Origin: Verpa conica | Lineage: Eukaryota; Ascomycota; Pezizomycetes; Pezizales; Morchellaceae | Length of the DNA stretch: 64,000 bases | Reading direction: 5' to 3' | Assembly: GCA_033030425.1 (NCBI GenBank) | Contig: JAUFSD010000011.1 | Span: 186,001-250,000 of the forward strand | Shown: positions 13,181 through 45,837 of the stretch, piece after piece | How positions within the stretch are numbered: the stretch's first letter is position 1 | Layout of the letters: each line of letters begins with the position of its first letter | Made by a program: the position numbers and the translations under genes | Notes under the pieces: generated by a model | Databases searched by the model: none | What the model was told of the DNA's origin: nothing | Seen by the model: the letters and a program-made list of their open reading frames with translations, nothing else

Positions 13181-13889
13181 GAGCTAACCATCGTCATAAC
13201 TAGTCTCAAGTACCTCTCCATAGAGACACCTAAGGATCTCCCTTGAGGGATAGGACCAGCTATCCTATTCCGGTCAATAGATACTAAGGAAAGTCGTTAC
13301 TATGATAGCCCGATCCCTAAGCGAGCTGGCGAGCTCCTAGGACGGAGCGAAGCTCACCGTCGTCGGTATGCGACAGAGACCAGAGTAATGCGTCTATAGC
13401 TTATAGCTACGGGAGATACTAGTGCAATGAGACTGAAGCTGTTGCCTCCATGAACAGAGTTAAGCTCCTGTTCCTCTAGGAGTTTCAAGGGGGACAGCGT
13501 GCGGGCAGCGTAACCACAGGATACAACTAACTCGATGGCAAGGTAACTATCCGTTACAAGCAAAATACCAAAGGTTTGTGAAGTAGGAAGTGGGTTCAGC
13601 GATCGCGAAGCGATGAAACAGCGGAGAGGCAGCGAAGAGAGAAGTTGGTATTGAGTCTAACTGAAGAAAGTAAAGTAAAGTAAAGTAAAGTATTTATTTT
13701 CCCATCTAGCCCCGAGGGCCACTAGGTAAGCCCCGAAAGGCCGCCTACAAACTACCGCCTAAAAAAAACAAAAACAAAAAAAACAAAATACAAAATTAAA
13801 ACAAACAGAACTAAAACCTTTTCCATTTCGCTTATCGCCCGATATTATTGCCTGCAAACAAAAGAAAAACTTCCTCCCGCAGGTCACCT

Positions 13890-16800
13890 TCAATTTTTCC
13901 CCTTGCCCTTTTTCCAAACTACTTTCGTTGCTCTCAGGAACGAGAGTAGGGGTAGATAACTGTCGTGGCTGACTATGTCTTCCCAGGAGCCTCCATGTGT
14001 TTGATCGATTAGTTCCTTTCTTTGTTGGTCCAGTAGTGGGCAGTGTAGTACTACGTGCTTGCTGGAGAGACTCGCTCCGCACTCGCACTGTGCTGGTGTT
14101 CGGAAGTGTGTTGAATCGATATGTGTTGCCTCGTTGCGTACTCTGAAGAGTGTGTCTGCAAAGCGCTTACTAACTTCGCTGTAAGGTGGGTATGGTCCCT
14201 TCGTAGAGCCTGTTTGTTCTTGTAGTACATGTCGTGGGAGGCTTTGGAGCCAGGTGATGGTAGCCTTTCCGTATGTGTCTGTTATCTCGAGTGCTTTTTT
14301 GGCTAGAGCGTCAACTTTATCGTTTCCTGTTATGCCAACGTGTGAGGGGGTCCACTGTCCTCTGACACTACAGCCTCTCTGCTGTAGCGTCTTAATGTCC
14401 TCCAGGCTTTGCCTTGTAAATTCTTTGTTGGGTGCTGCTGCCCCTGTGAGTCGTTTTAGCGCCGTTTGGTTATCGACCATCAGGCATATTTCAGTCTTCG
14501 TGATTCCGGAGGCTACCAGCTCTCTGAGTGCCCCCGCGATTGCTGCCAGTTCTCCGTCCAGTATGTCCGCTTTCGGCCCTATGTTTACGCTTCCTTTTAT
14601 TGATATCTGGTTTGACAGGTCTCCTGTCCAAGCCGCGCTGACTGTTTTGTCTTTGGATCCGGCGCTGTATACTGGGAGTACGTTTGGGTTGTTTCTGACC
14701 CAGTGATTGTGTTCTTTGGCCGCTTCTTCCTTGGTGTTGTTTGATATAGTGATGTTGTGGGGGGAGAGCCACAGTTCTTTTGGGATGTCTTCTGTGTCTT
14801 CGATGGGTTGATGTTGAGTGTAGTGCTGAACGATGTGGGCTATTCGCTCTAATCCTACTCCGTGGTAGTGATTTTCTTTCTGTAGTAACTTTACTAGGGT
14901 TGACTTGTTGGGACTGTCGCTGGTGCTACTGAGTGTCCTGATGCCGTATCGTAGTGATTTGATGTCCAGCTGTGTTTTGAGCGGGGGAAGGCCGGCCTCC
15001 TTCAGGAGTCTTCCGGTGTCAACGTGTTGGGGGAGTCCCGTTATTATCTGCGCTGCCTTGTTGTAGGTCGGGGACAGACGGTCCAGAATGTGTCTGGCAC
15101 CTGTCCACCATACTTCCGATCCCCACATTAGGGAGGGCAGAAAAAGGCCTGTTATTAGTTTGTAGACACTTTTAGGTGTGATCGTGTTGTTGTTGATGGC
15201 TTTTTTGATTATTGCTAGTATTGTATTGCTTTTGGAGATGGCTTTGCTGATGTGCTCTCTAAATGTGAGCCTTTGATCTAGGTAGACTCCGAGTATTTTT
15301 ATGTTCGTTTGGGGGATAACAGGTTTGCCGTAGAGATTGACTGGTACTGTCTTGCTGGATTTGCTGGTTGTCGGAAAGAGATACAGTAGGTCTGCCTTTT
15401 CGGGGGCGAAACGGATGCCCAGTATCTGTGCCTTTTGTTCCTTCTCACTCATTCGTTCTTGTAACCTGATGGCAATAAACTTCTCCGATCTGGCTCCTTG
15501 CAGCATGGCGTCATCGTCCATGTAAACGTTGTTAAGTTCTGTGGTCGTCTCTTTTGGTCTGAGAAGTAGGTCCGCTAGAATCATGTACAGTATGGGTGAG
15601 AGTGGAGAGCCCTGGGGTACTCCTGAGTTGTAGGGTAGCCGTTCCGATTCTTCCTGGTTAAAGGCAAAGAAGACTTTTCGGTGCGAGATGAAGTTTTCCA
15701 CCCACTTGCAGGTATACGTGGGGAATTTCCTAGCTTTCATGATGTGTACTAGCCGCTCGTGGTTTACCAGGTTGAAGGCTCCTTCTACGTCGTTTGTGAG
15801 TATGGCCGGTCTTATAGGGGTTTGGCCTGTTGTCTTTTTTGTTCTGAGCCATTCCTGTGCTGGGGTGAGCATTTTTAGGAGAGCGTCTGTGCTGGACCGC
15901 CCTTCCACTGCTCCCATCTGGGAGTTCGAGAGTCCGCCGCACTCTTTGCCATACCGGGTAATTCTTCTAGCCACTATGCTTTCCAGTAGCTTGCTCATGC
16001 AGGGTAATAGGGAGATAGGTCTGTAGGATTTGGGTTCTTGTAGTTCCGTTTTTCGGTGTTTGAGTATCGGTACGCACTTGGCTATCTTCCACTCTTCTGG
16101 GTGTACGCCGTGCCACAGTAGCTGTGAGAAGACTACTTGGAGAAGCTCGGGATTTGCTTTGTGTATTGCCACTACTGTGTCCCACTTCATGTTGTCTGCC
16201 CCTGGTGCTGTTTTTAGGTCTCTTGACAATGCCCGGTTTATTTCTTCTATGGTTATCTCTGTGTATGCGTTACTGAGATCCTTGGTACAAGGGGGTATAA
16301 ATTTCTCTGGAATTGGGGGTAGGGGACTGTCATTTTTGGGGAAGAAGGATGTGTTAAACCTGTCCACCTTCCCCGCAAACGTGTCATCACCTTGCATTTC
16401 CGGTATTCTCATAACTCTCTTGGGTTTCTGAACGAGCTTCCATAGTATGTTTTTGTTTGCTTTGGCGAGGTTTTGTTTGATGTAATCTCCCCTGGCGTAC
16501 CTGACTGCTTGTTTCCACTTATTGCTTGCTCTGTTTGCCGTTTTCCTTGCTTCTGAATTGTGGGGAAAATTTCTTGCGCTTCTGGTGGTTCTTGCTACTC
16601 CCTTTTTCAGGGAGTTTGGATGTTCTGTCCACCAGGGGTGGCTGTACCGCCCTGCTTTTCTTAGAGGGACTGTGATTTCTATGATGCGGTCCACTTCCTT
16701 GAGGATGCTTTCGATGCTTTCTAGCGTGCTTGTTGGGCTCGTCCAGTTGTACCGGTTCGCTTTGAGTTTTCGGATCTCATCTGAGAAGATTTGTGTGTTC

Positions 16801-17537
16801 AGCTTGTTCCACGCTCTTTTTGTTGTGTTTTTTGGGGGTTCGAAGTTCCATGCCGTCTGAACCGCAGAGTGATCTCAATTGTGGGATGGTCCTTCGTCAG
16901 TTTGTACGCTGTGTATTAGCTCTTCGGCTATTCCTTTTGCCATTGTCAGGTCTATTACTGTCGGGGACTGGCCGTTCCTTGGATAGTGTGTGTAGCTGGA
17001 GTCGTTTAGTAGCGTTAGGTTCTGATCCTCGAGCCATTCTGCTACTTTGTGTCCATGGGTGTCTGCTCTTATTCTGTCCGAGTGTAGAGGGGTTTTTTCT
17101 TTGTACCACCATTCATTGTGGCTGTTGAGGTCTCCCGCTAGGTATGTGTTGGAATCGATTTGGAGTTGTTCTGATGCTTCTACTATATGTTTGGATCTTC
17201 CAGGTGAGTAGATATTAAGAATAAGTACTGTTTTTTTGTTGACTTGGATCGTGACTCCTAGTATGAAATTTTCGATTGACTGAGTGATAATCGGTCTCAG
17301 TCCCAAGTCTTTTCTAATGTAGGTAGCGCACTTTGCTGGGATTGCTGGGGTAAATAGATCAAAATTTGGTATAGATGGGGGGAGTCCGTTTTCCTGGACC
17401 CACGGTTCTTGTAGTAACAAAAGAAAAATATTTTTGGATGAGTTGGCTTGTTCCAATACTGAAAGAGTGGAGGCCATTCCCTTGGCGCCGTTCAGTTGCT
17501 GTGCTAGGGCTGTGCCTGTTTTTGGGATGTCGCACAT
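13890..17537 (-). pseudogene. LINE1 ORF2: endonuclease, reverse transcriptase, RNase H
   Basis: A 1216-codon frame read in one phase with a single internal TGA (16875-16877). Residues 1-220 are the APE-type endonuclease (LQEPW, GDLNSHNEWW); the stop falls right at the SxDH motif region that should end the nuclease active site. The RT follows, with SYRPISLLP, SGVPQGSPLSP and YMDDDAML motifs. The RNase H has DGELAA, VDNQTA and GNDKVD, but its first catalytic Asp position reads YSAGSK instead of YTDGSK. A CECGAS…KHVVLHC knuckle ends the protein. The ATG directly follows the ORF1 stop (TAAATG), suggesting termination-reinitiation. Confidence 0.88.
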
Positions 17538-19136
17538 TTAGTCGGCGTCCATGGCCTCTTTGTATGCTTCCTCTTGTGCTGTTCTGCGGTCCTTTGCTAT
17601 CTGTAGCTTCATCGGGCAGTTCCTGTCTGAGGATTTGTGTAGCGAGTTGTTGCAGTTAACGCAGCGATGTGGGGTGTGTTCGCAAGTGATGCCTCCTTTG
17701 CACTGAGCGCACTTGTGGTCCTTGGTGTGGTGTTGTTCTGCGCAGACTGCGCAGGTGGGGATTTTTTCTTTGCATAGCGGTATGGGGTGTCCTAGCTTGT
17801 TGCAGTTGTGGCACTGTGTGCTTGGTCCGTACTGGTGGTATGTCTCCATTCTGCAGAATTTGTTGTCCACTATGAGGTACCTAAAGCCCAGGGTCTCTAG
17901 GGTGTAGTTTCCGTTCACCGCTATGACCATCGTCGACCACGGTTTGTTTTCTCTGCTTTCTTTTCGGGTGAGCCAGTATGGTACTTGGGCTAGTTTGACT
18001 TGTTTGTAACTTTCAGTGATGATGCTGGCCAGGTTCATTCCAGATTCCTTGTCGTCTTTTCCGATATCTGTTGGGATGCCGTGTACCAGGAATTTTGTCA
18101 ACCTGGAGTTGGCCTTTACTTCCCCGACGTTGAACCCGTGTCTGTTGAGGGTGTCCGCTATTTCCTTGGTGAACTTGAGAAGATGTGATGAGTCCTGGTC
18201 GAAGGGGGCAGATGCTACTATTGTCTGTTTGCCCAGTTTTTTGGTCATCAGGACTTTCTGTCCTGTTGGTTCTAGTCCTTTGCTTATGATGTGGTGTAAT
18301 GCGTTATCGGTGGTGGTGATGGGAATGTCGCTGATGGTTTTGATGATGATTTCTCTATTAACCCTAGAGAACTCTGGTTTGAAGAGCGGGGCCTTTTTCT
18401 TTGGTGCTACTTTTTCCCAGTTATCCGTTTTTGGTGCAGATGCTGCTGCTGCTGCGGCGTAGCTTTTGTTTTTGGGGGGCTGGGCTTGGTTGCTCTTTTT
18501 ATTCGGTCCTGGTCTGGTGTCTCTGGGAACCGGGGGAGGGTTTGCTGGGATTGGGTGGCTGTTGGCTGCTTTCAGCTGTAGTATATTGGTGGTGACGGTG
18601 TTGTGCCTGACTTGCGCGTCCAGGGCTTGTTTCTGGATAATTTCTTTGAGGTCTGAAATCTCGTTCCTGAGTTTCGCGATCTCGGACTGGTTCGCTAGCG
18701 AGGACTCTCCAACCAGCCACGCTATATAGTTGAAGGCTCCTGACTTAGAGATGGTGGAGTCTTGCGCTACCGGAAGGTAGTTGGTTTCCGGATCGTATTC
18801 TTGTGTGTATGGGGGGGCAGTGAAGTGTGGTTCTTCTTCGTCAGAGTTGGAGTCTTTGTCTTCGTCCATTGCTTCTTCCTCGACGACGGGGAAGGTGGGG
18901 TCGGGCATGGTTGAGCTGTCCGTCGTGAGTTCTGGTGTGTTGTCTGGGCCTGTGGTGGTTCCAAAGGGGAGGGTGCTTTGTCTAGACATCTTGCTAGGCG
19001 AGCTTGACCGGTGATTTGGGGAGGAATTAGTTCGCTTAAGGCTGCGCTTCTCTGGTGAGAGCGGTAGCGCGAATATCCTTGGTAAGAAAGGGGGAGGGGT
19101 GGATGGGCTCTCAGGACGCGAGGCTGAGGTATCCAC
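17538..19136 (-). CDS. LINE1 ORF1 gag-like RNA-binding protein
   Basis: 532 codons. The N-terminal third is low complexity and Ser/Pro/Thr-rich with an acidic patch. A short coiled-coil-like part follows (SEIAKLRNEISDLKEI), then a Pro/Ala-rich linker. The core has the family motif LAQVPYWL. The C-terminus has three Cys/His knuckles (CHNCNKLGHPIPLC, CAVC…HHTKDHKC, CVNC…C). Such ORF1 proteins coat LINE RNA. The frame begins with GTG at 19134-19136; the first ATG is at 18987-18989 (MSRQS). The upstream peptide is conserved in LINE2 and LINE3, so translation may start at a non-AUG codon. Confidence 0.85.
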   Translation of the reverse strand: MDTSASRPESPSTPPPFLPRIFALPLSPEKRSLKRTNSSPNHRSSSPSKMSRQSTLPFGTTTGPDNTPELTTDSSTMPDPTFPVVEEEAMDEDKDSNSDEEEPHFTAPPYTQEYDPETNYLPVAQDSTISKSGAFNYIAWLVGESSLANQSEIAKLRNEISDLKEIIQKQALDAQVRHNTVTTNILQLKAANSHPIPANPPPVPRDTRPGPNKKSNQAQPPKNKSYAAAAAASAPKTDNWEKVAPKKKAPLFKPEFSRVNREIIIKTISDIPITTTDNALHHIISKGLEPTGQKVLMTKKLGKQTIVASAPFDQDSSHLLKFTKEIADTLNRHGFNVGEVKANSRLTKFLVHGIPTDIGKDDKESGMNLASIITESYKQVKLAQVPYWLTRKESRENKPWSTMVIAVNGNYTLETLGFRYLIVDNKFCRMETYHQYGPSTQCHNCNKLGHPIPLCKEKIPTCAVCAEQHHTKDHKCAQCKGGITCEHTPHRCVNCNNSLHKSSDRNCPMKLQIAKDRRTAQEEAYKEAMDAD

Positions 19137-19357
19137 GATGTCTGTGGTGTGGTGTCTTCAAGCTATCTGATAGCGTTGAAGAGAAACGTTGATGGAACTA
19201 AAGCGGGGAAGTTGTCTGAAGTTATGAAAATAAAGGTTTTCGGTGTGTGTAACCGTCGCTTAGAGTTATTCCCGAAGTATTTTGTCCCTAACGATCAAGA
19301 AACGTTGCGTAAAGAAGAAAGAAAGAAAAACTATTACAGAGAGGGAGCAACGCTCCC

Positions 19358-19366
19358 TATTTATAC
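19358..19366 (-). promoter_or_regulatory. TATA-like box of S upstream of LINE1
   Basis: GTATAAATAG reads on the minus strand in the S half that lies just 5' of LINE1, about 60-70 bases before the LINE start. The same box occupies the same place upstream of LINE2 (31205-31212) and LINE4 (45711-45718). Inferred promoter; no transcript evidence. Confidence 0.5.
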
Positions 19367-19598
19367 CCAAACTTCCCAGTTATACAATGCCTTTGTTCCC
19401 TTCCTCAATACCTGTTACCCTGCCTCCCTCCTTGCATGAGTCACAACGAGACTCGCCCTGGCGCCCCTGCTCGATCCGTGAAAAGGAGGAATAACAACGG
19501 TTTCGCTGATGGCCAACCTTATGGGAGGCCGAGAGCCGTGAGATGAGAGCAAAGCTATGCTTAGTAGTTAGGGCCGTCAGCAAAAATAATAATTAACC

Positions 19599-21781: not shown

Positions 21782-21809
21782 GTAACGGGGGTACTCCCAG
21801 GGGAGTACT

Positions 21810-22177
21810 TTTCACGGAGTGATCGAGGGAACAGGGATGAGTCTCGCTGTGACTCATGCGAGGGAGAAGATAGGGTAACAGGCGTTGGAATGGGGAACAA
21901 AGGTATTATGCGACGAGGGGATTTTTGTATAAATAGGGAGCGTTGCTCCCTCTCTGTAATAGTTTTTCTTTCTTCTTTCCTTACGCAACGTTTCTTCAGT
22001 TAGAACCAATACAAACTTTCTTCTTCGCTGCCTCTCCGCTGTCTCATCGCTTCGCGATCGCTGAAACCACTTCCTACTTCACAAACCTTTGGTATTTTGC
22101 TTGTAACGGATAGTTACCTTGCCATCGAGTTAGTTGTATCCTGTGGCCACGCTGTCCCCACGCTGTCATCCTTGAAA
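21810..22177 (-). mobile_element. S element, empty copy (368 bp)
   Basis: Begins TTTCACGGAG, ends ATCCTTGAAA. The 5-bp target duplication GTACT is perfect (21805-21809, 22178-22182). The LINE target site is intact (ACGCAACGTTTCTTCAGTTAGA-like), showing the unoccupied state. TATAAATA is present. Confidence 0.9.
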
Positions 22178-23148: not shown

Positions 23149-23520
23149 TTTCACGGGGCGATCGGGGATGCCAGGGTGAGTCTCGTCGTGACTCATACAG
23201 GGAGGAAGGTAGGGTAACAAGCGTTAAGGATGGGAACAAGGGCATTGTACAAAGAGGGATTTAGGGTATAAAAAGGGAGCGTCGCTCCCTCTCTGTAATA
23301 GTTTTCTCTCTTTCTTCTTTACGCAACGTTTCTTCAGTTAGACTCAATAGAAGCTTTCTCTTCTCGCTGCCTCTCTCCCATTTACATCGCTAAAGCGATC
23401 GCTGAACCCACTGTGACTACATCACAAACTCTTGGTATTTTGCTTGCAACGGATAGTTGCCTTGCCATTAAGTTAGTTGTGTCCTGTGGCTACATTGTCC
23501 TCACGCTGTCCCCCTTGAAA
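23149..23520 (-). mobile_element. S element, empty copy (372 bp)
   Basis: TTTCACGGGG…CCCCCTTGAAA with perfect target duplication CTGCT (23144-23148, 23521-23525). The joined flanks match the uninterrupted sequence of repeat P near 13431-13446. The internal LINE target is unoccupied. Confidence 0.92.
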
Positions 23521-25317: not shown

Positions 25318-25698
25318 TTTCAAGGGGGGACAGCGTGGAGACAGAGTGACCACAGGATACAACTAACTCGATGGCAAGGTAACTATCCGTTACAAGCAAA
25401 ATACCAAAGGTTTGTGAAGTAAGAAGTGGTTTCAGCGATCGCGAAGCGATGAAGCAGCAGAGAGGCAGCGAAAAGAAAGTTCGTATTGAATCTAACTGAA
25501 GAGAGAGAGAGAGAGAGAGAGAATTTATTTCCTATCTAGGCCCTCGGCCCATTAAGTAAGTCGCTAAGCGACCGCCTACAAAAACGTCCCCAAAAATACA
25601 AGTAACACATAACGTTTTAAGCTTAAAGAAAAAGAAAACCCGCGTATCCATTCTCGCCTGCAAACAAAAGAAAAACTTCCTCCGCGCAGGTCGCCCCG

Positions 25699-28600
25699 TT
25701 ATTTCCTTCTGGTATTGAGCTCTGTACTGAGCATAAATCGTATGAGGGGATAGCAGTTGCTATCGTTAATGAGTTGGTCCCATGAGTGGGAGGGGTAGTG
25801 TTCCTCGATCATGAGTTTTCGTTGCTGATCGTATCGGTGGCAGTCGAGTAGTACGTGTTTGCCAGACATGTCTTCTCCGCACTGGCAAGTCGGTGGTGTG
25901 TAAAAATGGGATTGATCGAGATGGGTGACTGAGTTTCTGATTTTCCACATGATGCTGGCATGTCGTTTATTAACTGATGCTAGATGGGGGGTGGGTATGT
26001 GATGTGGGAGCCCGTCATGTCTGAGCCGATGAGGAAGTCCTTTTAGCCAGGTGAGTGAGACTATAGGGTTATTGCAAAGTAGTGAGAGGCCGTCCCTAGC
26101 TAGTTTATCTGCTAGGTCGTTGCCTTTGATACCGACGTGTGAGGGTGTCCACCGAACGCGGACTACACAGCCCCTGTTGTTTAGAACCTGTATGTGTTGT
26201 AAAGATTTTTGAACTGGCGCAAGGACTGGGGCTGCTGCTCCCGCGAGGCGCTGGATAGCCAGCTGGTTGTCTACGCAAAGCCAGATGGGGGTGTTGGTAA
26301 TGTTATTGTAATTAAGGTGGCCGAGTGCGTGGGAGATGGCTTCTAGTTCGCCGTCTAGAATGTCTGCAAAGCGGCCTAGGTTGAGGGAGCCCTTGTTTTG
26401 AATGGTGTCACCGACTATGGATACCCAGGCTGCGCTTACCGATTCGTCTTTGGAGCCGTCTGTGTATACTCTGTAGATGTCTGGGGCGTTTTTGACCCAT
26501 TCTTGGTGGTTGGCGCTTTCCGTCTCTTTGTCGGTTCTGGCTATATAAATATGTGTCTGAGGGAGCCAGGGTGCGGAGATGTCTGAGGCGTCTTCTATTG
26601 GGAGACCGTGTGTTGTTGTTTGTAAAAGATGTGCTATTCTTTCCAAGCCGAAGCCTGTTTTCTGGGTGGGTTTCCGGAGGAGCTGGAGCAGCTGTTTTTT
26701 GATCTTATTGGAGTCCGGGCTAAGAAGTGTCCTGACGCCGTACCCAATGGATTTCGAATTAAGCAAGTTTTCCAGGGTGGGGAGGCCTGCTTCTTGTAGG
26801 GTTACTTTGGCGGGAGTGTGATTGGGGAGGCCGGTGATGAGCCGGGCTGCCCTTAGATACACTGGCTTGATTCTTCTAATGATGTGATCCGCGCCTGTCC
26901 ACCACAGCTCCGATCCCCACAGTATGGCTGGGATGAATAGGGACTGTACTAGCTTGTGGGTGACTAGCGGCGTAATGTTCTGATTCCTAAGAAAATTGCG
27001 GATCATTGCCGAAATGGTGATGGCTTTGGAGACTGCTCTGCCGGTTTGTTCCCTGAAGGTGCATTTTTGGTCTATATAGACTCCTAGAATCTTGATAGCT
27101 TCTCCTGGGAGAATGGGTTTCTGATATAGGGGTACTGTTGTTGTTGGGGGGGAGCTTTTACTTGTTGTGGGGAGCAAGAATATGAGTTCCGCTTTCTCTG
27201 GTGCGAATTCTAGTCCAAGGGTTGTAGCTCTGGCTTCCTTAACCGCCATCCTGTTCCCGAGTCTTTTGCTGATGATGTGTGGGGTAGTGCCTCCCTGTAG
27301 CATGGAGTCGTCATCCATGTATACGGTGTTGACCTCGTTAATCGATGTTGTTGTTGGTAACAGAGGATCTGCAAAGATCATGTAAAGCACCGGTGAAAGT
27401 GGGGAGCCTTGTGGGACGCCTGAATTGTATGGGAGGGAGTGTGACATTTCCCCGTCAAATGCAAAGTGAATCCTGCGATTGGTGTTGAAGCTGTTGACCC
27501 ATTTACAGATGTACTCCGGGAACTTCTTTTCCTTCATGATTTGCATGAGTGTTGAGTGGACAACCGAGTTGAACGCTCCTTTGACGTCGTTGGTTAAAAT
27601 GGCTGGTCTTGTTGGTTCTTGACCGGTAACTTTCTTGACGCGGAGCCACTTCTGTGCTGGTGTCATGATGGTCATGAGGGCGTCCATGCTGGACTTTCCC
27701 GGTCTAGCCCCCATTTGTTGGTCGGAGAGCCCTCCGCACTGTGTGCCGTACTGGTCGAGTCTTCTTGCTACTATTGCTTCCAGCAGCTTGCTTAAGCAAG
27801 GAAGTAGAGATATGGGGCGGTAGGATTTCAGGTCCAGGGTGTCTGTTCTCCTGGTTTTGAGAATGGGTACGCACTTGGCTGCCTTCCATCTTTCTGGGTG
27901 TATGCCGTGCCAAAGGAGTTGTGAGTACAGGGTGGTCAGGAGGCTGGGGTTGGCTTGTTGTATGCGAATGACTACTGGCCAGCCGATGCCGTCTATTCCC
28001 GGGGCTGTTTTTGTATCGCGCTTAAGGGCGGCGTTGATTTCTTCGATCGTAACTGCAGCGTAGTGATCACTAAGGTTTCTAGTAGATGGGGCAATAAATT
28101 CTAGGGGGAGGGAAGTCGGGGGGCGTCCATTATGGGGGAAGAACGTCTTGTTAAGAAGATGGACTTTCCCCCGAAATGTGCTTTCACCTTGTATGTCTGG
28201 TATGCTGGTGGATGTTTTGAGGCCTTTTAGGGCCCTCCACACTGTCCTGCTGTTTTTGTTGTTGAGCTCCTGGTCGAGGAAGTCTTTCCTGGCGTACCTG
28301 ACTCCCTTTTTCCAGTCGTTTTGGGCTTTATTTCTTAGTTTTTTGTTTTCCTCTGTGGCTTCTTTTCTGTAGTTTCTTGTTGCTTTTCTGGCAGCGTGTT
28401 TTAGATCGTCTAGATGTTTTGACCACCAGGGGTGCCCTTTGGTGCCGGCTTTTCTAAAGGGGACTGTTTCCTCGATCGCGCCGTCGATAGTGGCTAGGAT
28501 GGTGTCCATGTTTTCGACCGTTGCTGTGACTGTGTTCCAGTTAAGTGTTGCGGGATCGATAGCCGAGATGATTGTATCGAATTTTGCCCAGTCCGCTCTG

Positions 28601-31212: not shown

Positions 31213-31331
31213 CAAAAATCCCTGCCTCGCACAATGCCTTTGTTCCCCACTCCCGACACCTGTTACCCTATCTCCCTCCTTGCATGAGTCACGATAAGGC
31301 TCACCCTTGCGTCCCTGATCACTCCGTGAAA

Positions 31332-32841: not shown

Positions 32842-33208
32842 TTTCACGGATTGATCAAGGACGCCAGGGTGAGCCTCATGGTGACTCATGCAAGAAGGGA
32901 AGTAGGGTAACAGGTGTTGAGAATGAGGACAAAGGCATTGTAGACGTAGGGATTTTTGGTATAAATAGAAAGCGTTGCTCCCTCTTTGTGATAGTTCTCT
33001 TTCTTTTCTCTTTACGCAACGTTCTCTTCAGTTAGATTCAATACAAGCTTCTTTCTTCGCTGCCTCTCTACTGCTTCATCGCTTCGCGATCGCTGAAACC
33101 ACTTCCTACTACACAAACCTTTGGTATATTGCTTGTAACGGATAGTTACCTTGCCATCGAATTAGTTGTATCCTGTGGTCACGCTGTCCTCACGCCGTCC
33201 CCTTGAAA
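32842..33208 (-). mobile_element. S element, empty copy (367 bp)
   Basis: TTTCACGGATTG…CCCCTTGAAA. The target duplication TGAGT is visible if one T is shared with the element end (32837-32841/2, 33209-33213). LINE target intact. It splits LINE-B ORF1. Confidence 0.88.
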
Positions 33209-33373: not shown

Positions 33374-33564
33374 TTTCACGGAATGATCGGGACGCCAGAA
33401 TGAGTCTTGGTGTGACTCACACAAAGAGGGAAGTAAGGGTAACAGGTATCAGGGAGAAGGACAAAGGCATTGTACAAATGGGGATTTTGGGTATAAATAG
33501 GGAGCGTTGCTCCCTCTTTGTAAATAGTTTTTTTTTTCTCTTTTCTCTTTACGCAACGTTTCTT
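33374..33564 (-). mobile_element. S element, 5' half only
   Basis: Starts TTTCACGGAATG and runs to ACGCAACGTTTCTT, where the NA element begins at the usual target. No matching second half with a fitting target duplication is found, so the copy is chimeric or truncated. Confidence 0.8.
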
Positions 33565-34655
33565 ACGCCGCGACCGAGCTTCGCTCGGTCACGGCTACCA
33601 CCATCGGTTCCCCCATTCTCACGACTCTAGAGTTATAGCAAACCTTCGGGCGCGCTGAGACTCCATCTTACGGCAATACTGGGCACGTAGGACGGGAGTT
33701 GTTGAAGCAAACCTTTGGGCGCGCTGTAGCTTCTTTGTCGACCCAAACTTCGTTCAGGTGCCCTTCGGGGAAGTTGCGTCCACCTGCCCCCATTACCTTC
33801 GGATTTCACACTGCCAGTCTCTGTAAGCCTAGCGCTGGAACCTCTGTCAAAGTCCTCCGGAAACCCTCTCCATTCCATTTGGTTTGGATGAGCCCTTACT
33901 CGTTGCCTTCGGGCGCTCATCATGATGTTGGAGGTATCTCACCCGAGAACCAACCTCCCCACTACCAGTGAGCGGGCAGTCCCCCTCAACAACACTTTAC
34001 TTTACCGGACCAGGTAGACTCGATTCTCCAGGTCCTTTATTACATATAAACACTTTCTCCGACCGGAGAAAGTGCTCTACTTGACAGTTGGTCGACATCC
34101 GAGATCACCAACCCCTCCTTCACCTCAACGGCATACTGAATGACACCGGCCCCATGCCTTACACTACCATACTTCGGCCCCGTCCGAGCCCCTAATCTTT
34201 TTTACACCTTTGCTCTTCCTCTTTTTTACCAGATTATGTGACCGTGTCCGCTTCGGCGGGGGTAGAACACTTTTCTTGGTACCGGAGCTCCCCTAGGATG
34301 ATTATAGTCTTGAACTATAGGACGACTGGACCGGATTACATGCCAGAAATTAGCCTCTCTCGTTACTACGTCGTTGGATCGGAGGATTAGTGCTAGGAGA
34401 GTTGGGATGGGTTTACACTTGGCTTATTACATGTTCTTTCTTTGGTGTCGCTTAGTTAGTTCTATGTATTACGTTCTTTGTTGAGGTCCCTCTATGCGCT
34501 TAGTTCATAGATACCCGTTCACTCATTTTTGTTATCGGTACTCGATACCGATAGTTAGTTAGTTAGTTAGTTCGTGCCACCTAGTGGCTTACCTAGTGGC
34601 CCTTGGGGCTAGATGGGAAACAATATACTTTACTTTACTTTACTTTACTTTCTTC
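33565..34655 (+). mobile_element. NA element copy 1 (1.1-kb LINE follower)
   Basis: Starts ACGCCGCGACCGAGCTTCGC, a near-hairpin, and ends CTAGATGGGAAACAATA plus (CTTTA)n, the same 3' end as LINE1. A TTTCTTC target piece follows, then LINE3. No frame is conserved intact between the two NA copies (one is frame-shifted relative to the other). Two internal copies of GCAAACCTT(C/T)GGGCGCGCTG are present. Probably non-autonomous and moved by the LINE proteins. Confidence 0.8.
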
Positions 34656-35465
34656 TTCGTTAGGGATAAAAAAACACTCGGTATTACTCTAAGCGACGGT
34701 TACACACACCCAAACTCCCAATTTTCATAACTTCGGACATAAAACCCCGCTTTAGTTCTATCAACACTCCTCTTCAACGCTATCAGATAGCTTGAAGATA
34801 CCACTTCTTCATTATCGTGGATACCTCAGCTTTGCGTCCTGAGAGCCCATCCACCCCCCTCTACCCCCCCAAAGCGTATCTTTAGCCTTCTTCTGTCCCC
34901 AGAGAAGCGCTCCCTCAAGCGATTCGCCTCATCTCCCACTCATAGGTCTAGCTCCCCCACAAAGTTGTCTAGACAGTTCACCCTCCCATTCAGCACGGTC
35001 GGAGGACCAGACGAGACACCGGAAATCACCATCTCACCCTCCACATTCCCGGACCCCACAGCCCCCCCTATTCCAGAAGACACAATGGATGTGGAAAGTA
35101 ACCACAGTCACAGCAGCGAAGACAAGGAACCACTCCTCACTCAGGTCCTCAACCCGGACATCAACTATCTAGAGATGGAGGAAAGCGCTATCTCCAAGTC
35201 TCAAGCTTTTAACTATCTCGCCTGGCTCATCAGGAACAACACCGCGGCAGTCAGCAACGAAGTAACCAGACTTCAGAGCGAGGTCGGCTCCCTCAAAAGC
35301 ACTCTCAACTCCATTTACAACCACACCCAGAGGATCCTAACGGACCTCACTACTGCAAACAGTCTCCTTGGCGACATCAACACGAGGGTCACCGCACAAG
35401 CCTTTCCCCCACACCCTCCAAAGAATCCCCCTCACCCTAAAACACCAGCGGCCTCAAAACAGCTA

Positions 35466-35964
35466 TGGTGCGCGCAGTTATAAACCCGGACCAACATTTT
35501 GAGCCGATATTCCAACACAACTAATGGATAGAATTTTCTATAAAAACTTGGGAAACTTTCTAATATACTATTAAAGCTTCCCAAGTTTTTATAGGCCATT
35601 AGGGGCTATGGTTGTTGTGGAATAAAACCTCAATTTTAGGTGTGAAAAGTGTCATATGGAACAGTTCTCTATTATACCCAGACCATGACCAGATATACTT
35701 TGGTATATTTTTTCAGTATTATATATTAAAGTACTGTTTTTCATTCTAAAAATACTGGGGTATACTCTTTAAGTCACTGGAGATCTTTTGGAAGTGTTAT
35801 AAGAGAGTTTATATTTTTGAGGGGAAGTAGTCAACAATATTAGGCATACATGAGCATACATGAGCATACTTGGGCATACTTGGGCATACTTTGGCGCTTT
35901 TAGGCATGATAGGCGTGTTCCAAGCCCAACTTTTATTGGTCCGGGTTTAAGACCGTGCGCACCA
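35466..35964. mobile_element. TA-flanked MITE, TAGTGCGC family, copy b
   Basis: Ends TGGTGCGC…AAACCCGGACCAA are inverted at both sides (499 bp), with TA at 35464-35465 and 35965-35966. It shares internal sequence with 3804-4242. It splits the Gln-rich linker of LINE3 ORF1. Confidence 0.85.
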
Positions 35965-36536
35965 TACAACAGCAACAGCCGCAACAATCACAACAACAGC
36001 AACAAAAGCAACAGGCCTCCCAAAATACAGGCAGGAAAAGCTACGCCAGTGCTGCGGCACCCAGCAACAGCAACCCCGAAATAGAAGGAGAATGGAAAGT
36101 TTCCAAGGTTTTCAAAAAAAAGAAGGTCCCCCTCTTCAAGCCGGCCTTCTCCAAAGTCAACAGAGAGGTAGTCGTCAAAACCGCCACCAATATACCCTCC
36201 ACCATAACGGACAATGCCATTCTACACCACGTCAATAAGGGCCTGGAGCCACAACAGCAGCGAGCCCTCATGGCAAAAAAAATTGGCCCCTAAACAGTTA
36301 TAGTTACAGCCCCATTCGACCAGGACCCTCACTACCTGATGAAATGGGAACAAGAAATCAGAGACATTTTGGTCAGGTGCGGTTTGGACGTCAGTGAAAT
36401 CAAGGCCAACACCAAAACCACCAAGTTCCTCCTACACGGAGTTCCCACGGACATTGGCGCCACCCCTATGGAAGCAGGAGAAGAGGTCGCAGCCACCGTT
36501 AAAATCAACTATAAACAGTTCACTTTAGCCCAAATC

Positions 36537-37985
36537 TTTCAAGGGGGACAGCGTGAGAACAGCATGACCACAGGACACAACTAACTTAATGGCAAGGCAA
36601 CTATCCGCTGCAAGCAAAATACCAAGAGTTTGTGATGTAGTCGCAGTGGGTTCAGCGATCGTGTAGCAATGTAGTAGCAGAGAGGCAGCGAGAAGAGAAA
36701 GCTTCTATTGAGTCTAACTGAAGAAAGTAAAGTAAAGTAAAGTATTTATTTTCCCATCTAGCCCCAAGGGCCACTAGGTAAGCCACTAAGTGGCACGAAC
36801 TAACTAACTAACTAACTGTCGGTATCACGACCGACAACAAAAATGAGTGAACGGGTGTCTATGAACTAAACGCATAGAGGGACCTCAACAAAGAACGTAA
36901 TACATAGAACTAACTAAGCGACACCAAAGAAAGAGCATGTAATAAACCAAGTATAAACCCATCCCAACTCTCCTAGCACTAATCCACGATCCAACGACGT
37001 AGTAACGAGAGAGGCTGATTCCTGGCGTGTAATCCGGTCCAGTCGTCCTATAGCTCAGGGCTATAATCATCCTAGGGGAGCTCCGGTACCAAGGAAAATG
37101 TTCTACCCCCGCCGAAGCGGACACGGTCACATAATCTGGTGGAAGGGGGAGAAGCAAAGGTGTAAAGAAGGTTAGGGGCTCGGGCGGGCCGAGGTATGGT
37201 AGTGTAAGGCATGGGGCCGGTGTCATTCGGTATGCCGTTGAGGTAGAGGGGGGGTTGGTGATCTCGGATGTCAACCAACTGTCAAGTGAAGCACTTTCTC
37301 CGGTCGGAGAAAGTGTTTATAAATAATAAAGGACCTGGAGAATCGAGTCTAACTGGTCCGGTAGAATAAAGTGGTGTTAAAGGGGACTGCCCGCTTGCTG
37401 GTAGTGGGGAGGTTGGTTCTCGGATGAGATACCTCCAGCTTTATGATGAGCGCCCGAGGGCAACGAGTAAGGGCTCAGCCAAACCAAATGGAATGGAGAG
37501 GATTTCCGGAGGACTTTGACAGAGGTTCCAGCGCTAGGCTTACAGAGACTGGCAGTGTGAAATCCGGAGGTAATGGGGGCAGGTGGACGCAACTCCCCGA
37601 GGGGCACCTGAACGAAGTTTGGGTCGACAAAGAAGTTACAGCGCGCCCAAAGGTTTGCTTCAACAACTCCCGTCTAACGTGCCCAGTATTGCCGTAAGAT
37701 GGAGTCTCAGCGCGCCCGAAGGTTTGCTATAACTCTAGAGTCGTGAGAATGGGGGAACCGATGGTGGTAGCCGTGACTGAGCGAAGCTCGGTCGCGGCGT
37801 AAAAAACGTTGCGTGAAGAGAAAAGAAAGAAACTATTACAGAAAGGGAGCAACGCTCCCCTTTTTATACCCCAGATCCCACTTTGTACAATACCCTTGTT
37901 CTCATCCTTGACACCTGTTACCCTACCTCCTCCTTGTATGAGTCACGTCAAGACTCACCCTGGCGCCCCCGATCGCTCCGTGAAA
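36537..37985 (+). mobile_element. S element, copy g (hosts NA copy 2)
   Basis: TTTCAAGGGGG…CTCCGTGAAA with perfect target duplication AAATC (36532-36536, 37986-37990). Disregarding S and one AAATC rejoins the LINE3 ORF1 codons GCC CAA ATC CCG TAC TGG (AQIPYW). This gives the clearest proof of the S boundaries. Confidence 0.95.
36727..37802 (-). mobile_element. NA element copy 2
   Basis: Same 1.1-kb element as 33565-34655, in reverse. The (AAAGT)n tail is at 36727-36745 and the 5' end near 37802. It lies at the fixed LINE target of S, in the same orientation relative to S as the LINEs. Includes an AACT microsatellite near 36800-36818. Confidence 0.85.
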
Positions 37986-38307
37986 AAATCCCGTACTGGC
38001 TCAGCAGGGAAGAGAACCGCAAAGAAAAAGCTCACTCCACCATGGTCATCGCCATCAACGGCACACACACCTTTGAAAGTCTGGGACTCAGATACCTGGC
38101 CATCCACAACAAATTCTGCCGTATGGAAGAATACCACCAGTACGGACCAGCCACACAGTGCAGGAAGTGCTGCAAGCTAGGACATTCCACGGCCCTGTGC
38201 AAGGAAAAAACCCCCACCTGTGCGGTCTGCGCAGGACCACACGACACCAGGCAGCACAAGTGCGAACAGTGTAAGGGAGGAAACCAGTGCACCCACACCC
38301 CCCACAG

Positions 38308-38959
38308 ATGTCGCGGGCAGCTCCGAGGATACCAACGCCACCGTCGCACGGAACAAAACCAAAACCGGACCACACCCCAGCAAGAGAGTCACCTTCGACC
38401 TCGCCCCCACTAGGCGATCGAGTCGATTGAATGCGCGCATTGTGAGCGATTTAACGGAAAGGGAATAATGGGCGCGGGAAGGCTCGTATCCACGCACGCG
38501 AGGTTGATGGGGGTTTGTGTCTCTGGCAATAAGGTTCTCCGGGCCGACGGCCCCTCGTGGTAGTTTCGGAATTTACGTAACGTTATCGTATGACCCCAGG
38601 AGCTCTTTGTACACTTTGTATGCGGTTTGTATGGGAAAGATACCTTTCTGTTGGATATGACATATCCAACAGAAACAGTGGGGGAAATTTAGTTTAGAGT
38701 GAAAAAGTTTTCTTTGGCGTTAAGGTTATTTTGGAAGCGGAGAAGAAGGGAAAAATAGGGGAAGCATATAAGGAGGGGCCTCGCCCCGAGGATTTTCTTA
38801 GGCATGCAACGTCTTGTTTATATTGTTTGGTAAAGAAATATTACAGAGTTTTTCACTTGTAATATCTTTTGTAGTAACACCGTCCATTGTCGCCGTCTCA
38901 GTCGCTGTCACCGTTCCGTTGCCTAGGCTTCACCGTACCATCCCAACCGCCCCGCCACA
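38308..38959. mobile_element. Solo LTR, family LTR1, copy b
   Basis: TGTCGCGGGCAGCTCCGAGG…CCGCCACA, 652 bp, with perfect target duplication ACAGA (38303-38307, 38960-38964). A TATA-like CATATAAGG lies near 38766. It interrupts the LINE3 ORF1 knuckle HRC|VNCN. Confidence 0.92.
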
Positions 38960-39089
38960 ACAGATGCGTCAACTGCAACACCAGCCTCCACAAGTTATCA
39001 GACCCCACGTGCCCAACCAAGGTCAAAGCTATCGCAGCTATCAGAGAAAGGAGAACCCAACCCGTGGACAACGAGATGGCTCATGAATA

Positions 39090-40384
39090 ATGGCTCCTCA
39101 CAAGCCAGGCATAGCCCTAGCGCTGCAGCTGAACTGCGCTAAGGGACAGGCCTCTACTCTTTCAGTTATTCAAAAAGCTAGCACTCAAAAAAACGTTTTT
39201 CTTTTATTTTTACAAGAACCATGGGTCTTGGAAACGGGCGCCCCACCCATCATGCAAAATTTTGATATGTTCATACTATCGGCCAACCCAAAATGCGCCA
39301 CATACATTTGCAAAGACTGGGGCCTCGCCCCCAGCATATCAATGAAAATCAAAGACTCCTTTTTGGGGGTCACCATCACTATTAACGGCACATGCATCGA
39401 ACTTTACAATCTCTACTCACCAGGCAGGTCCCACCATCTCAAGAAGATACTGCCCAACTTGCAACCAAGAGAGAATTGCTTCATTATCGGCAATTTCAAC
39501 TGTCACCACGAGTGGTGGTACAGTCACAAAACCCCACTTCATCCGGCCGTTATCAGAAACAACTCATCAGCCAGTGATATTGTAGACTGGCTCCTAAGAA
39601 AAGGCTTCCAACTACACAATAAACCAGAATACACCGATTTTTCTCGAAACGGGTGTCTCCCAAGTATTATTGATCTCACCTTTTTGAGAGGTACCCCAAA
39701 TCTGCTTGTCCAAAGCTGGGCCACCGACACCGACTCCTTACATAGATCAGATCATGCCTGCACACAAACAGCATGGCTACTGGAATCCCCAAAAGCTACA
39801 CCAAGGAGGGCCTGGAATAGAGCAGACTGGACTAGGTTTGACGCCAAAATATCAGCTATTAACTCTTCACAATTCAAGTGGAACACAGTCAAGGAAACGT
39901 CCGAGAGCGCGGACATAATTCTTGACACCATTAACAAGACAATCGAGAAGACAGTTCCCTTCAGGAAGGCCAGCAGAAAAGGCCATCCGTGGTGGAACAT
40001 ACAACTAGACGAACTCAAGAACATTGCCAGAAGGGCAACGAGAGACTACAGACACTCTCCTACGGACGAGAACAAGAGGCACAGAAACAAGGCTCAAAAC
40101 AACTGGAAAATGGAAATCAGATACGCCAGAAAGGACTTCCTAGACCAAGAACTCAGGAAAAAAGACAGCAAAGCAGTATGGAGCGCCCTAAAAGGCAGGA
40201 AAGTTCCTACCAGCATCCCGAATATACAAGGTGAAAGCACATTTGGGGGGAAAGTCCGTCTCCTAAACGAGACCTTCTTCCCCCATAATGGACGCTCTCC
40301 AGTTTCCCTTCCCCCAAATTTTATCTTCCCCCCCTTTAAAGATATTAGTAACCACTATACCCCAGTCACACCCGAGGAAGTCAA
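39090..40384 (+). pseudogene. LINE3 ORF2, endonuclease and start of RT only
   Basis: About 430 residues open: endonuclease motifs LQEPWVLETG, NFNCHHEWW (the usual GDLN reads GNFN here, so a catalytic Asp is replaced) and HRSDHAC, then the linker. The frame ends when LTR2a starts at 40385, before any RT motif. Non-functional. Confidence 0.88.
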
Positions 40385-40807
40385 TGTAAAAGTACACAAG
40401 CCCTTGCTCTAGTGGGGACAGCAGGTGATGTCTAAAGAACTGGGACACTAAGGGCACATGGACTAGAAGACTGGGAAGACTGGAACTAGAGTAGGTACTT
40501 GGTAGTAAATACAAGTTGAAGGATAGAGAGCTAAGACTAAAAACTGGGGAAATGGCTCGATACTTATAGTATAGCTGAAACATGAAAGGGAAGAGGCTGA
40601 AACGCATAGCGTGTCAGACTACATGAAACAGAAACATGATATGTGATATGAAACTAGGAGATCCTGATGGTGTGGCAAGCCACATCATCCCATACATGAA
40701 ACATAAATGAGACTAGACATGAAACTGATATGAAACAGCAAGGCTGACTGGTGGTCAAGTGACAATTTGTCACCAAGTAAGAACTGATGATTTTGTCGTT
40801 CTTGACA
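40385..40807. mobile_element. LTR-like element, family LTR2, copy a
   Basis: TGTAAAAGTACACAAGCCC…GTCGTTCTTGACA, TG…CA ends, 423 bp, very similar to 50302-50703. No target duplication: the left flank is LINE3 ORF2 and the right flank is the middle of an S element. This suggests rearrangement through the LTR. Confidence 0.75.
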
Positions 40808-41937: not shown

Positions 41938-41952
41938 TTTCAAGGGGGACAG

Positions 41953-42310: not shown

Positions 42311-42343
<33 letters not shown>

Positions 42344-43447: not shown

Positions 43448-43621
43448 AGCGTGAGGGCAGTGTGACCACAGGATACAACTAACTTGATAGCAAGTTAACT
43501 ATCTGTTACAAGCAAAATACCAAAGGTTTGTGAAGTAAGAAGTGGTTTCAGCGATCGCGAAGCGATGAAGCAGCAGAGAGGCAGCGAAAAGAAAGTTCGT
43601 ATTGAATCTAACTGAAGAGAG

Positions 43622-45648
43622 AGAGAGAGAGAGAGAGATTTTATTTCCCATCTAGGCCCGAGGCCCATTAGGTAAGCCATATAGATGGCGCGCACTGGAG
43701 ATAAATACAAAAATAGGAAGCGACAAGAGAACTATTTGACTAGATCAAAACGTGTAAGGAAAAACTGCAAGAGAAAAATACCCTATAACTGAAAAGAAAT
43801 TACAGACTAACTGTAGTCGTAAAAAGCGAAAAGCAAAAGGAAAGAAAAGAAAAACCCCTAGTCCGTCATGACTACTTCGACTTCCTTACCTTTCTTAATG
43901 GATAACTTGGCTCGCGTAGGGCAAGCTGGGTCGTTGGCCTTATGTCCTGGGTTCTGCGGACAGTTGACACACTTGATGGGTAAATGAGTGCACTTAACAC
44001 CTCCTTTACAGGAGTGGCACTTATGTTCGGAGGAGTGATGGGAGCCAGCACACACTGCGCAGCAAGCTTCACTTTTGCAGCGTAGATGATGGTGGCCGTA
44101 GCGCTGACAGTTTTGACACTGTGTGGATGGGGTAATTGGGATGAAGGGTTCGAGGCGGCACATCTTATTCAAGATGACTAGGTACCTGCACCCGAGGTTT
44201 TCGATAGTGACTCTTCCGGGGAAGGCGAGGATCATGGAGGAGTGGTTTTTGTTGGTCCGGTCTCTACTGAGCCATCTGGGAATTTGTGCTAGCTGCACAT
44301 TTGGGAGGTTAAGCTCGACGTGGGCGGCTATCTCTTCGCCCGCTTTAACTCCATCTCCGACGGATGTGGGAACTCCGTGGAGGATAAATTTTGACCAACG
44401 GCTGTTGGCTTTGGCTGAGGTGGGGGAGAGACCGAGAGCGGATAGTGCCGCACAGATGTTTTCTGCGTACGGTGCCGCGTTTTCTCCTGGTTGGTTAGGG
44501 CCGCCAGAGAAGACCAGGTTTGACTTGCTGGTGTACCGAGCCATGAGGAAGAGAACTCCCGTTCCCTTAAGGGTGTTATTGACTTTGGCCAGGATGGAGT
44601 CTTCAGAGACTCTGTCTGGCGCTGGTTCAGAGAGTTCTATCACAAACTCTCTGTTGATCTTTGTGTATTGGGGTTTGAAGAGGGGTTCAACCTTCTTCTT
44701 TTTGGCTGGAGGGGAGGGAGCCTTGGGTGCTGGCTGGGCTGGCTTCTTCGCTGCCTCGGCATAGCTGGCCTTGGTTTGTTTCTGGGGTTTGGGGGCCGCG
44801 GGCTTTGGGGCCTTTGGCTGTTGAGGCTGTGGCTGTGGTACTGGTGGGGAGGATTGTTGTGGACGGGTGTTGGTCTGTAAGCGAGCCACGGTCGCCTTGA
44901 GGTAGACCACCTCGTCTGTCAAGGTGTCGATGGATTTAAGGAGGGGGGAGATGGCGTTGTGGATCAGCCAGGTGGTGTAATTGACTGTCCCGCTCTTGGA
45001 CTCGACTGAGGGGGGAAGGTAGGAAATTTTAGGATCGTACGGGGCCAGGAAGTCTGGCTGGTCCAAGGACATCTCGACGTCCTGGGTCTGGGGGGTGGGG
45101 TCTTTGAGGGGTGTTTCCACCTCAAAACTCTCTGCCAGAGCGGAGAAACGGCTACCACTAGCGGTAGAGTCGACTCTAGGTCGTTTTGAAGGGGAGGTGG
45201 TTCTGGAGGAGGAGGAGGCCGCGGTGCCAAAGGGGAGGACACTTTGGGTAAGCGGGGTAAACGAGGGGGTGGATCCAGGAGTGGCGGCCATGACTTTCTC
45301 AGTCTGCCTCCGCTGGATTTCTGTCTTGATTTCCGCCGTCTTTTGCTGGAAATAGGCCCAGTTGTTGTTAGCCATCTGGTAGCCCGACTTGGTGTGCTGC
45401 TGTTGCGTAGTTCTTTTCCTCGCTTTGAGCAGTATTTCCAGGTGAGAATCGTCGTATTCGCTTAGGGGTTTGTCGGCAAAGGGGTCGACATAGTCGACGT
45501 AGGAACCGGAGAAGGACATTTCTGAAGGTACGCAAGGCTTCAGAAAGAAATAAAGTGTATAGATCGAAAGACTCTTATCAAAAGGAACTTGCCCGAAGGT
45601 TTGCGCCCGTGAAAGAGGAAAAGGTCGTGGTATAGACACGCTCCCTAG
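43622..45648 (-). mobile_element. LINE4, ORF1-only element
   Basis: About 2.0 kb on the minus strand at the fixed S target (duplication GAAGAGA). One ORF (gag-like), then a 3' UTR ending CTAGATGGGAAATAAAAT plus (CT)n, the LINE2-type 3' end. No ORF2. The 5' end differs from LINE1-3. Comparable in design to mammalian HAL1, which is an ORF1-only L1 relative. Confidence 0.85.
43858..45519 (-). CDS. LINE4 ORF1 gag-like RNA-binding protein
   Basis: 553 residues from the ATG at 45517-45519 (MSFSGSYVDYVDPF). The open frame extends further upstream into S sequence, but that part is S-derived and unlikely to be coding. Order: acidic N-terminus, basic coiled-coil-like region (residues ~30-80), Ser-rich linker with SVLPFGTAASSS, a Pro/Gln/Lys-rich tract, the gag core (VQLAQIPRWLSRD), then knuckles CQNCQRYGHHHLRC, CAVC…HHSSEHKC and CVNC…C. 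It is free of stops although it lacks a partner ORF2 in the same element. Diverged from LINE1-3 ORF1. Likely role: binding its own RNA for transport to the LINE machinery. Confidence 0.85.
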   Translation of the reverse strand: MSFSGSYVDYVDPFADKPLSEYDDSHLEILLKARKRTTQQQHTKSGYQMANNNWAYFQQKTAEIKTEIQRRQTEKVMAATPGSTPSFTPLTQSVLPFGTAASSSSRTTSPSKRPRVDSTASGSRFSALAESFEVETPLKDPTPQTQDVEMSLDQPDFLAPYDPKISYLPPSVESKSGTVNYTTWLIHNAISPLLKSIDTLTDEVVYLKATVARLQTNTRPQQSSPPVPQPQPQQPKAPKPAAPKPQKQTKASYAEAAKKPAQPAPKAPSPPAKKKKVEPLFKPQYTKINREFVIELSEPAPDRVSEDSILAKVNNTLKGTGVLFLMARYTSKSNLVFSGGPNQPGENAAPYAENICAALSALGLSPTSAKANSRWSKFILHGVPTSVGDGVKAGEEIAAHVELNLPNVQLAQIPRWLSRDRTNKNHSSMILAFPGRVTIENLGCRYLVILNKMCRLEPFIPITPSTQCQNCQRYGHHHLRCKSEACCAVCAGSHHSSEHKCHSCKGGVKCTHLPIKCVNCPQNPGHKANDPACPTRAKLSIKKGKEVEVVMTD

Positions 45649-45710
45649 GAAGAGACGTTGCGTAAAGAAAAGAGAAAGAAAAACTATTACAGAGAGGGAG
45701 CAACGCTCCC

Positions 45711-45718
45711 TATTTATA
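45711..45718 (-). promoter_or_regulatory. TATA-like box of S upstream of LINE4
   Basis: TATAAATA on the minus strand in the S half 5' of LINE4, placed as for LINE1 and LINE2. Inferred promoter element. Confidence 0.5.
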
Positions 45719-45837
45719 CACAAAAATCCCCGCTTTGCACAATGCCTTTGTCCTTATCCTCGATACCTATTACCCTGCCTCCTTCCTTGCCTAAGTTACA
45801 CCGAGACCCACCCTGGCGTCCCGATCGTTCCGTGAAA

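Follow-up and report, generated by a model that had tools for sequence, protein, structure and literature searches.

Known Target-Specific LINEs and the Verpa conica Elements

Some long interspersed nuclear elements (LINEs) insert at fixed genomic sites. Tx1L of Xenopus, a member of the Tx1 clade, is a LINE with an apurinic/apyrimidinic endonuclease (APE)-type nuclease specific for a site inside a DNA transposon, and R1 and TRAS, of the R1 clade, target ribosomal DNA (rDNA) or telomeric repeats. HAL1 is a half-LINE, that is, a relative of a LINE with open reading frame 1 (ORF1) only. Here we describe LINEs of the ascomycete Verpa conica that insert at one exact site in the long terminal repeats (LTRs) of two Ty3/gypsy retrotransposon families, which we call S and T2. 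They were analyzed in a 64,000-nt stretch of DNA (the window; assembly GCA_033030425.1, contig JAUFSD010000011.1, positions 186,001 to 250,000, forward strand) and across the genome. In the reading that we consider probable, a LINE clade and its passengers, some ORF1-only and others non-coding, use target-primed reverse transcription to enter a single site in the 5′ leader of gypsy LTRs of self-priming-like type.

Searches of open-licence PMC papers yielded no LINE specific for an LTR among the titles and abstract openings listed. Tx1L appears to be the nearest system in kind, as it too uses a fixed site inside another mobile element (here, 59 of 60 LINE ends, 44 of them directly in an LTR). 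Its target is a DNA transposon, whereas the elements described here use the LTRs of two gypsy families at a presumed transcript start, carry passengers and stack in tandem. R1 and TRAS are likewise APE-type and target-specific but use rDNA or telomeric targets rather than LTRs. The passengers resemble HAL1 in being ORF1-only relatives of a LINE and differ in their LTR targets and in the tails they have in common with their presumed helpers.

In excerpts of the published literature, Tx1 and R1 were named as the APE-type target-specific clades (PMC4640811) and "other TEs" (transposable elements) were given among the targets of non-LTR retrotransposons (PMC8869645). SART1Bm, alike in being APE-type and target-specific, differs in its telomeric-repeat target according to an excerpt of PMC7265360. 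The fungal target-specific non-LTR elements MoTeR, FoTeR and Cnl1 are presented in part of PMC12857005 as telomere-targeted with a restriction-like endonuclease; the Verpa elements differ from them in having an APE-type endonuclease and an LTR target.

Site Specificity Across the Genome

We searched the 45.8-Mb genome with a 19–20-base pattern of the LINE 3′ end. The pattern matched 60 times (reversed-pattern control, 0), and 59 of the 60 ends lay at an S-type or T2-type site. Flanks were read for 51 ends, and the remaining nine were placed through the S-junction pattern only. The S-type ends numbered 41: 33 directly in S (24 read, nine by junction pattern alone) and eight in tandem behind an older insert. 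The T2-type ends numbered 18, with 11 directly in T2 and seven in tandem. One of the eight S-type tandem inserts (L068) was located a few bases past the end of an LTR resembling a third type, T3, within the apparent 5′ end of another element and not at the T3 site. The single end elsewhere (L059) abutted another repeat and lacked a tail. All 44 direct inserts were in LTR sense, and the insertion position was constant to within a base or two. This is site specificity: recurrent insertion at one exact LTR site, in fixed orientation, with short target duplications and in two targets.

An independent count was based on the LINE reverse transcriptase (RT). It yielded 28 matches at identities of at least 57%, grouped by eye into 22 loci. 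Nineteen loci had a pattern-defined 3′ end, and two more lay within 4 kb of a correctly oriented S junction, found with a looser junction pattern (40 matches versus four in its control).

Promoters are generally known to be open chromatin, so LTR starts could in principle act as a passive hotspot, through accessibility or fragile sequence, for LINEs of any kind. Against this, only two of 63 distant LINE RT matches (approximately 26–35% identity) were within 5 kb of a pattern-defined end and, judged by coordinates, these two coincidences arose because an S with an insert lies in or beside an old LINE. Insertion is also fixed almost to the base and goes with the LTR allele (see below). We therefore regard a passive hotspot as very improbable.

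The first-pass annotation of the window had proposed that LINEs enter one fixed site inside another mobile element and that diverged lineages have this specificity in common. Both proposals held across the genome. It had suggested inspecting the flanks of all genomic copies for unrelated sites, of which one was found (L059, one of 60 ends). Its choice of S as the sole target proved too narrow, as 18 of the 60 ends were at the matching site of T2.

The Targets Are LTRs of Two Ty3/gypsy Families

S, as drawn, runs from TTTCAAGG to CCGTGAAA over approximately 370 bp. The 5-bp duplications on its flanks vary among copies. We counted 89 exact empty S sites genome-wide. Same-orientation S copies 4–9 kb apart formed 14 pairs (5.4–7.3 kb), 11 of them at 5.38–5.44 kb. 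All 14 pairs enclosed a gypsy RT, which always ran antisense to S as drawn. In the one pair in which this stretch was read, it matched RVT_1 (PF00078) and RT_RNaseH families (PF17917/PF17919). Among the best 120 of 7989 matches, the nearest named relatives of this RT were from Podosphaera aphanis (74%) and Morchella sextelata (65–78%), some of them called Tf2-like, a result in keeping with an ascomycete host. S is thus the LTR of a Ty3/gypsy retrotransposon and not, as had been assumed initially, a short transposon of its own. The inserts, first described as antisense to S, are so as drawn; relative to the LTR's own transcription, given by the RT strand in the 14 pairs, they are in sense.

The short inverted ends and 5-bp duplications of S had suggested a miniature inverted-repeat transposable element; this was ruled out by the pairs enclosing gypsy RT and by the primer-binding site (PBS). 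The S ends, TTTCA...TGAAA instead of TG...CA, are unusual for an LTR and are supported by the duplications and the PBS edge. A further gypsy family (G000, e.g., C10:133878 and C1:2981830) has an RT 74–75% identical to that of S.

T2 measured 360 bp in the copy examined and has TG...CA ends. Two empty copies were flanked by the 5-bp duplications CTAGC and TTTTC, and a third read copy (C22) had none. The T2 site pattern gave 70 matches, the right halves of occupied copies among them. Nine of 10 same-orientation T2 pairs 4–9 kb apart enclosed a gypsy RT, with approximately 61% identity to the RT of the S element in the long matches. T2 is the LTR of a second gypsy family related to S.

We then considered whether S-plus-LINE units had been copied together, by segmental duplication or as LTR elements with LINE cargo, from one old event. 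In favor of this, S copies are numerous and LINE-bearing ones common. However, both outer edges were read in nine occupied S copies: in eight, a matching 5-bp duplication spanned the insert, different each time, and the ninth (C1:286.9 kb) serves as 5′ LTR to a full-length element. Three further occupied copies with a damaged or unread edge are omitted from this count. The different duplications indicate that S inserted first at many places and that LINEs entered later and separately. The left halves of 20 occupied S copies did not cluster by cargo (13 changes, on a tree of poor resolution, versus 11.4 on average after shuffling), and unrelated cargos with four tail types occupied the same site. 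Co-duplication, which the first-pass annotation had named among the outcomes that would undercut its proposal, is accordingly rejected as extremely improbable: the duplications differ and the S sequence is independent of cargo.

At C1:286.9–290.8 kb (L010, L040), a full-length S gypsy element with an open pol frame (1264 aa) carries an ORF1-only element in its 5′ LTR.

Site Position in the LTR and a Putative Self-Priming Signature

In both LTRs the insertion site is downstream of a TATA box and directly after a 9-nt motif, ACGCAACGT in S and ACGCAACAA in T2. Read in LTR sense, S has TATAAATA, with ACGCAACGT 55 nt beyond TATA; (T/C)TCTTC comes next, and after it the insert. In T2, ACGCAACAA lies 39 nt beyond TATAAAA and is followed by CTTGCAT, or a variant of it, and then by the insert.

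The PBS just inside the 5′ LTR edge, read in one copy each, was TT-ACGTTGCGT for S and CT-TTGTTGCGT for T2. Each is an exact 9-nt complement of the motif in its own LTR at an offset of 2, and motif and PBS differ in step between S and T2. Random PBS sequences reached a 9-nt complement in 90 (S) and 71 (T2) of 20,000 trials. A PBS pattern admitting both forms matched 29 times (control, 0) and was present in 14 of 14 S pairs and seven of 10 T2 pairs.

In self-priming, as described for Tf1 and Tj1 in an excerpt of PMC4600332, the 5′ end of the mRNA acts as the primer. By that excerpt, Tf1 and Tj1 resemble the S and T2 elements in being Ty3/gypsy elements with a 5-bp duplication and a PBS complementary to an LTR segment. 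They differ from S in its TTTCA...TGAAA ends, and in S and T2 the mRNA 5′ end is presumed, from sequence, to be the segment complementary to the PBS. The complementarity is a signature of self-priming, and both families look self-priming. With this signature at the site, the LINEs would insert immediately downstream of the point where the gypsy transcript presumably starts. Their site choice would thereby be linked to a constrained point of the life cycle of an LTR retrotransposon, its self-primer and presumed transcript start.

What Is Recognized at the Site

Tandem inserts accounted for 15 of the 59 ends. They kept only the duplicated 5–7 bp and, in those whose far junction was in hand, the promoter side; the other side was the 5′ end of another element. 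It follows that a new insert is placed on the promoter side of the older one and that the far side of the LTR is not needed. T3, found at 37 pattern sites, has TTGAATGCAAGTTG in common with T2 in some copies only and lacks ACGCAAC; none of the 60 LINE ends was at a T3 site. Two observations give good support to the promoter-side sequence, ACGCAAC together with the duplicated 5–7 bp, as the part that is recognized: it is the one side left in tandem inserts, and T3 LTRs are spared although some of them have the other side. Two natural targets, single-base alleles, an unused LTR and tandem inserts together dissect what is recognized.

The 3′ tails of the inserts are microsatellites, which were counted by eye. 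The 41 S-type inserts had (GA)n (23), (AGTA)n (14), (AAGTA)n (three) or (GAA)n (one), and all 18 T2-type inserts had (GTA)n. Among direct inserts, the (GTA)n tail was present in 11 of 11 in T2 and 0 of 33 in S, so that tail type matched target in 44 of 44. The 15 tandem inserts were themselves typed by tail and duplication and thus provide no test of this pairing.

Beside the site, the 89 empty S copies had G (38), A (46) or an extra GA (five). Where the right flank was in hand, inserts with GA or GAA tails were at G in eight of eight cases and those with AGTA or AAGTA tails at A in seven of seven, a pairing that comprises 15 junctions and was spotted after the fact. The simplest reading is that the protein of each LINE lineage chooses the allele and adds the lineage's own tail to LINE and passengers alike. 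Alternatively, the tail may be dictated by the primer end.

The Inserting Elements

The window contains LINEs, ORF1-only and non-coding elements at S, arranged as follows.

13483..13668, + strand: left half of S (gypsy LTR) at LINE1; outer 5-bp duplication AGGAG
13669..19296, − strand: LINE1; (AAGTA)n tail, A-allele S; ORF2 in two broken frames
19297..19483, + strand: right half of S at LINE1; LTR TATA box here, aimed at the LINE1 5′ end
21810..22177, − strand: empty S (solo LTR), site unbroken
23149..23520, − strand: empty S (solo LTR), site unbroken
25318..25504, + strand: left half of S at LINE2; duplication AGTTT
25505..31142, − strand: LINE2; (GA)n tail, G-allele S; ORF1 and ORF2 both open
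25699..29328, − strand: LINE2 ORF2; APE-type endonuclease, RT (YMDD), RNase H, CCHC-like motif
29328..30983, − strand: LINE2 ORF1; three CCHC-like motifs
31143..31331, + strand: right half of S at LINE2
32037..32404, + strand: empty S; duplication GAGAT
32842..33208, − strand: empty S; GAAGAGAACG allele, imperfect outer duplication
33374..33564, − strand: right half of S beside non-coding copy 1
33565..34645, + strand: non-coding element copy 1; 1.08 kb, (AAGTA)n tail; tandem, adjoins the S right half and the LINE3 5′ end
34660..40384, + strand: LINE3; resembles LINE2; broken, with a later S insertion splitting it
36537..37986, + strand: S inside LINE3; duplication AAATC; later received non-coding copy 2 (36725–37800, − strand)
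43448..43618, + strand: left half of S at the ORF1-only element; outer edge truncated
43619..45648, − strand: ORF1-only half-LINE (LINE4 of the first-pass annotation); (GA)n tail, G-allele S
45649..45837, + strand: right half of S at the ORF1-only element

The same two S positions bracket LINE1, LINE2, the 1.08-kb non-coding element at 36725–37800 and the 2.03-kb element at 43619–45648. The motif TCTAACTGAAGA occurred in eight exact copies in the window versus 0.5 expected (the expectation allowing up to one mismatch), and AACGTTGCGT in 10 copies with up to one mismatch versus 2.2 expected. Of the four or more unbroken S copies reported from the first inspection, four were found, as was the S right half adjoining non-coding copy 1. 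The supposed LINE4 with a diverged ORF1 is in fact an ORF1-only passenger.

LINE2 is approximately 5.6 kb long. Its ORF2 matched the APE-type endonuclease family PF14529 above the cut-off and the reverse transcriptase family PF00078 (YMDD), followed by RNase H (PF00075, 27 bits versus a cut-off of 25.8). These domains (APE-type endonuclease, RT with F/YxDD and RNase H) agree with those of APE-type LINEs of the I/R1/Tad group. In Pfam at E ≤ 0.001, no nuclease other than the APE-type domain and RNase H was detected in ORF2, a restriction-like endonuclease included. The closest LINE relatives were 31–35% identical, and a named fungal protein match was 24% identical.

The long open frame of the 2.03-kb element is ORF1-like only, with 33% identity to LINE2 ORF1 and no Pfam match; as mechanically called, this frame starts outside the element, past its 5′ end in the right half of S. 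Such ORF1-only half-LINEs, approximately 2.03 kb when whole, form a family present at both S and T2 sites. Ten further copies (L010, L011, L012, L014, L016, L019, L022, L026, L033 and L035) were 85–93% identical to the window copy at 43619–45648 in long matches. Two related non-coding kinds (approximately 1.1 kb or more) occupy the same kind of site.

In a tree of 10 LINE2-like copies, T2 users and S users fell on two sides of a 100/100 branch. A well-supported reading of these sequences is that different autonomous LINE lineages use S and T2. T2 inserts appeared in two places in the tree of ORF1-only elements, but a single T2 clade fitted too (p-AU 0.215); since it is not rejected, free exchange of helpers is not proven.

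Possible Promoter Capture and Its Alternatives

With every direct insert oriented in LTR sense, transcription from the LTR promoter would run on into it, and we infer promoter capture from the LTR. In the mechanism that we favor, the LINE's APE-type endonuclease would nick the target and priming would proceed from a GAAGA or GCAAG end. The LTR promoter would then drive the inserted LINE from a start approximately 15 nt upstream of the insert, so that a single site could offer both a promoter and a multicopy safe haven. Target sequence would form the start of the LINE RNA and could assist closure of the 5′ junction, and the insert would disable the LTR for its gypsy element.

A different explanation of the same site data is a pure safe haven, in which the endonuclease recognizes a motif that happens to be in these LTRs, the LTR promoter plays no part and the LINE has an internal promoter. 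The conserved 160-nt LINE 5′ leader could hold such a promoter, and an excerpt of PMC4640811 presents targeting of multicopy sequences as usually explained by the avoidance of harm. This account fits less well with a site just behind the TATA box and presumed start in both LTRs. It also has to explain why LINE, ORF1-only and non-coding elements have all spread with different 5′ ends that lack a TATA box: none was detected in the first 200 bp of one example of each, and the first 200 bp of the LINEs did not match the 5′ ends of the other two kinds. We consider it unlikely, though a serious alternative. The elements described here make the source of the promoter of target-specific LINEs a directly testable question.

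A short motif around GCAAACCTTCGGGC near the 5′ end was common to ORF1-only and non-coding elements and absent from the LINE 5′ ends compared. It is possibly an RNA or protein-binding element.

Several points weigh against targeted insertion with promoter capture as set out above. Orientation follows from a fixed nick and is not by itself proof of promoter use, and both the transcription start and the use of the LTR promoter are presumptive. An internal promoter of a kind that lacks a TATA box could be present in the LINEs; LINE1 and LINE2 are 75% alike over their 5′ 430 bp versus 68% in aligned ORF parts. The PBS form was read in only 18 of the 29 pattern matches (15 S form, three T2 form). 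When the divergent LINE1, an S user, was added to the LINE tree, the forks between T2 and S users lacked resolution. The 3′-end pattern detects only ends that retain it, and one of the 22 RT loci (C4:870667) had no identified junction. One T2 insert (e22, C4:1264051–1275398) had unequal left and right duplications, ATGCAAG versus ATATAAG. Finally, T3 is a weak control, as only some copies share the left half with T2 and T3 may differ in age and access.

A broader reading is that the LINE clade reads the start of self-priming gypsy elements, captures their promoter, stacks copies there, switches between two gypsy families and discriminates single-base alleles. We hold it tentatively, as somewhat less probable than not when taken as a whole. 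If it is true, the recognized sequence is one that gypsy elements cannot change without changing the PBS too, and parasites of their own promoter would keep them under control. Autonomous and passenger elements alike would receive from the helper RT a microsatellite tail particular to the lineage, so that tails would record who moved what.

Other Features of the Window

Two T3 copies were present in the window.

40385..40807: T3, second window copy
50302..50703, + strand: T3, third solo LTR; TTGAATGCAAGTTG in common with T2, without GTTGCGT

A search of the window with Rfam at the gathering score and a tRNA search revealed no known RNA and no tRNA. RNase H and RT pieces were found at 20348–21100 and 23777–25105. 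The RT piece is from a group of distant LINEs (approximately 31% identity, 63 such matches in the genome) that is not associated with S. Internal repeats with offsets of approximately 110–190 bp occupied 41233–41930 and 42340–42861, and related copies were located near 45838–46006.

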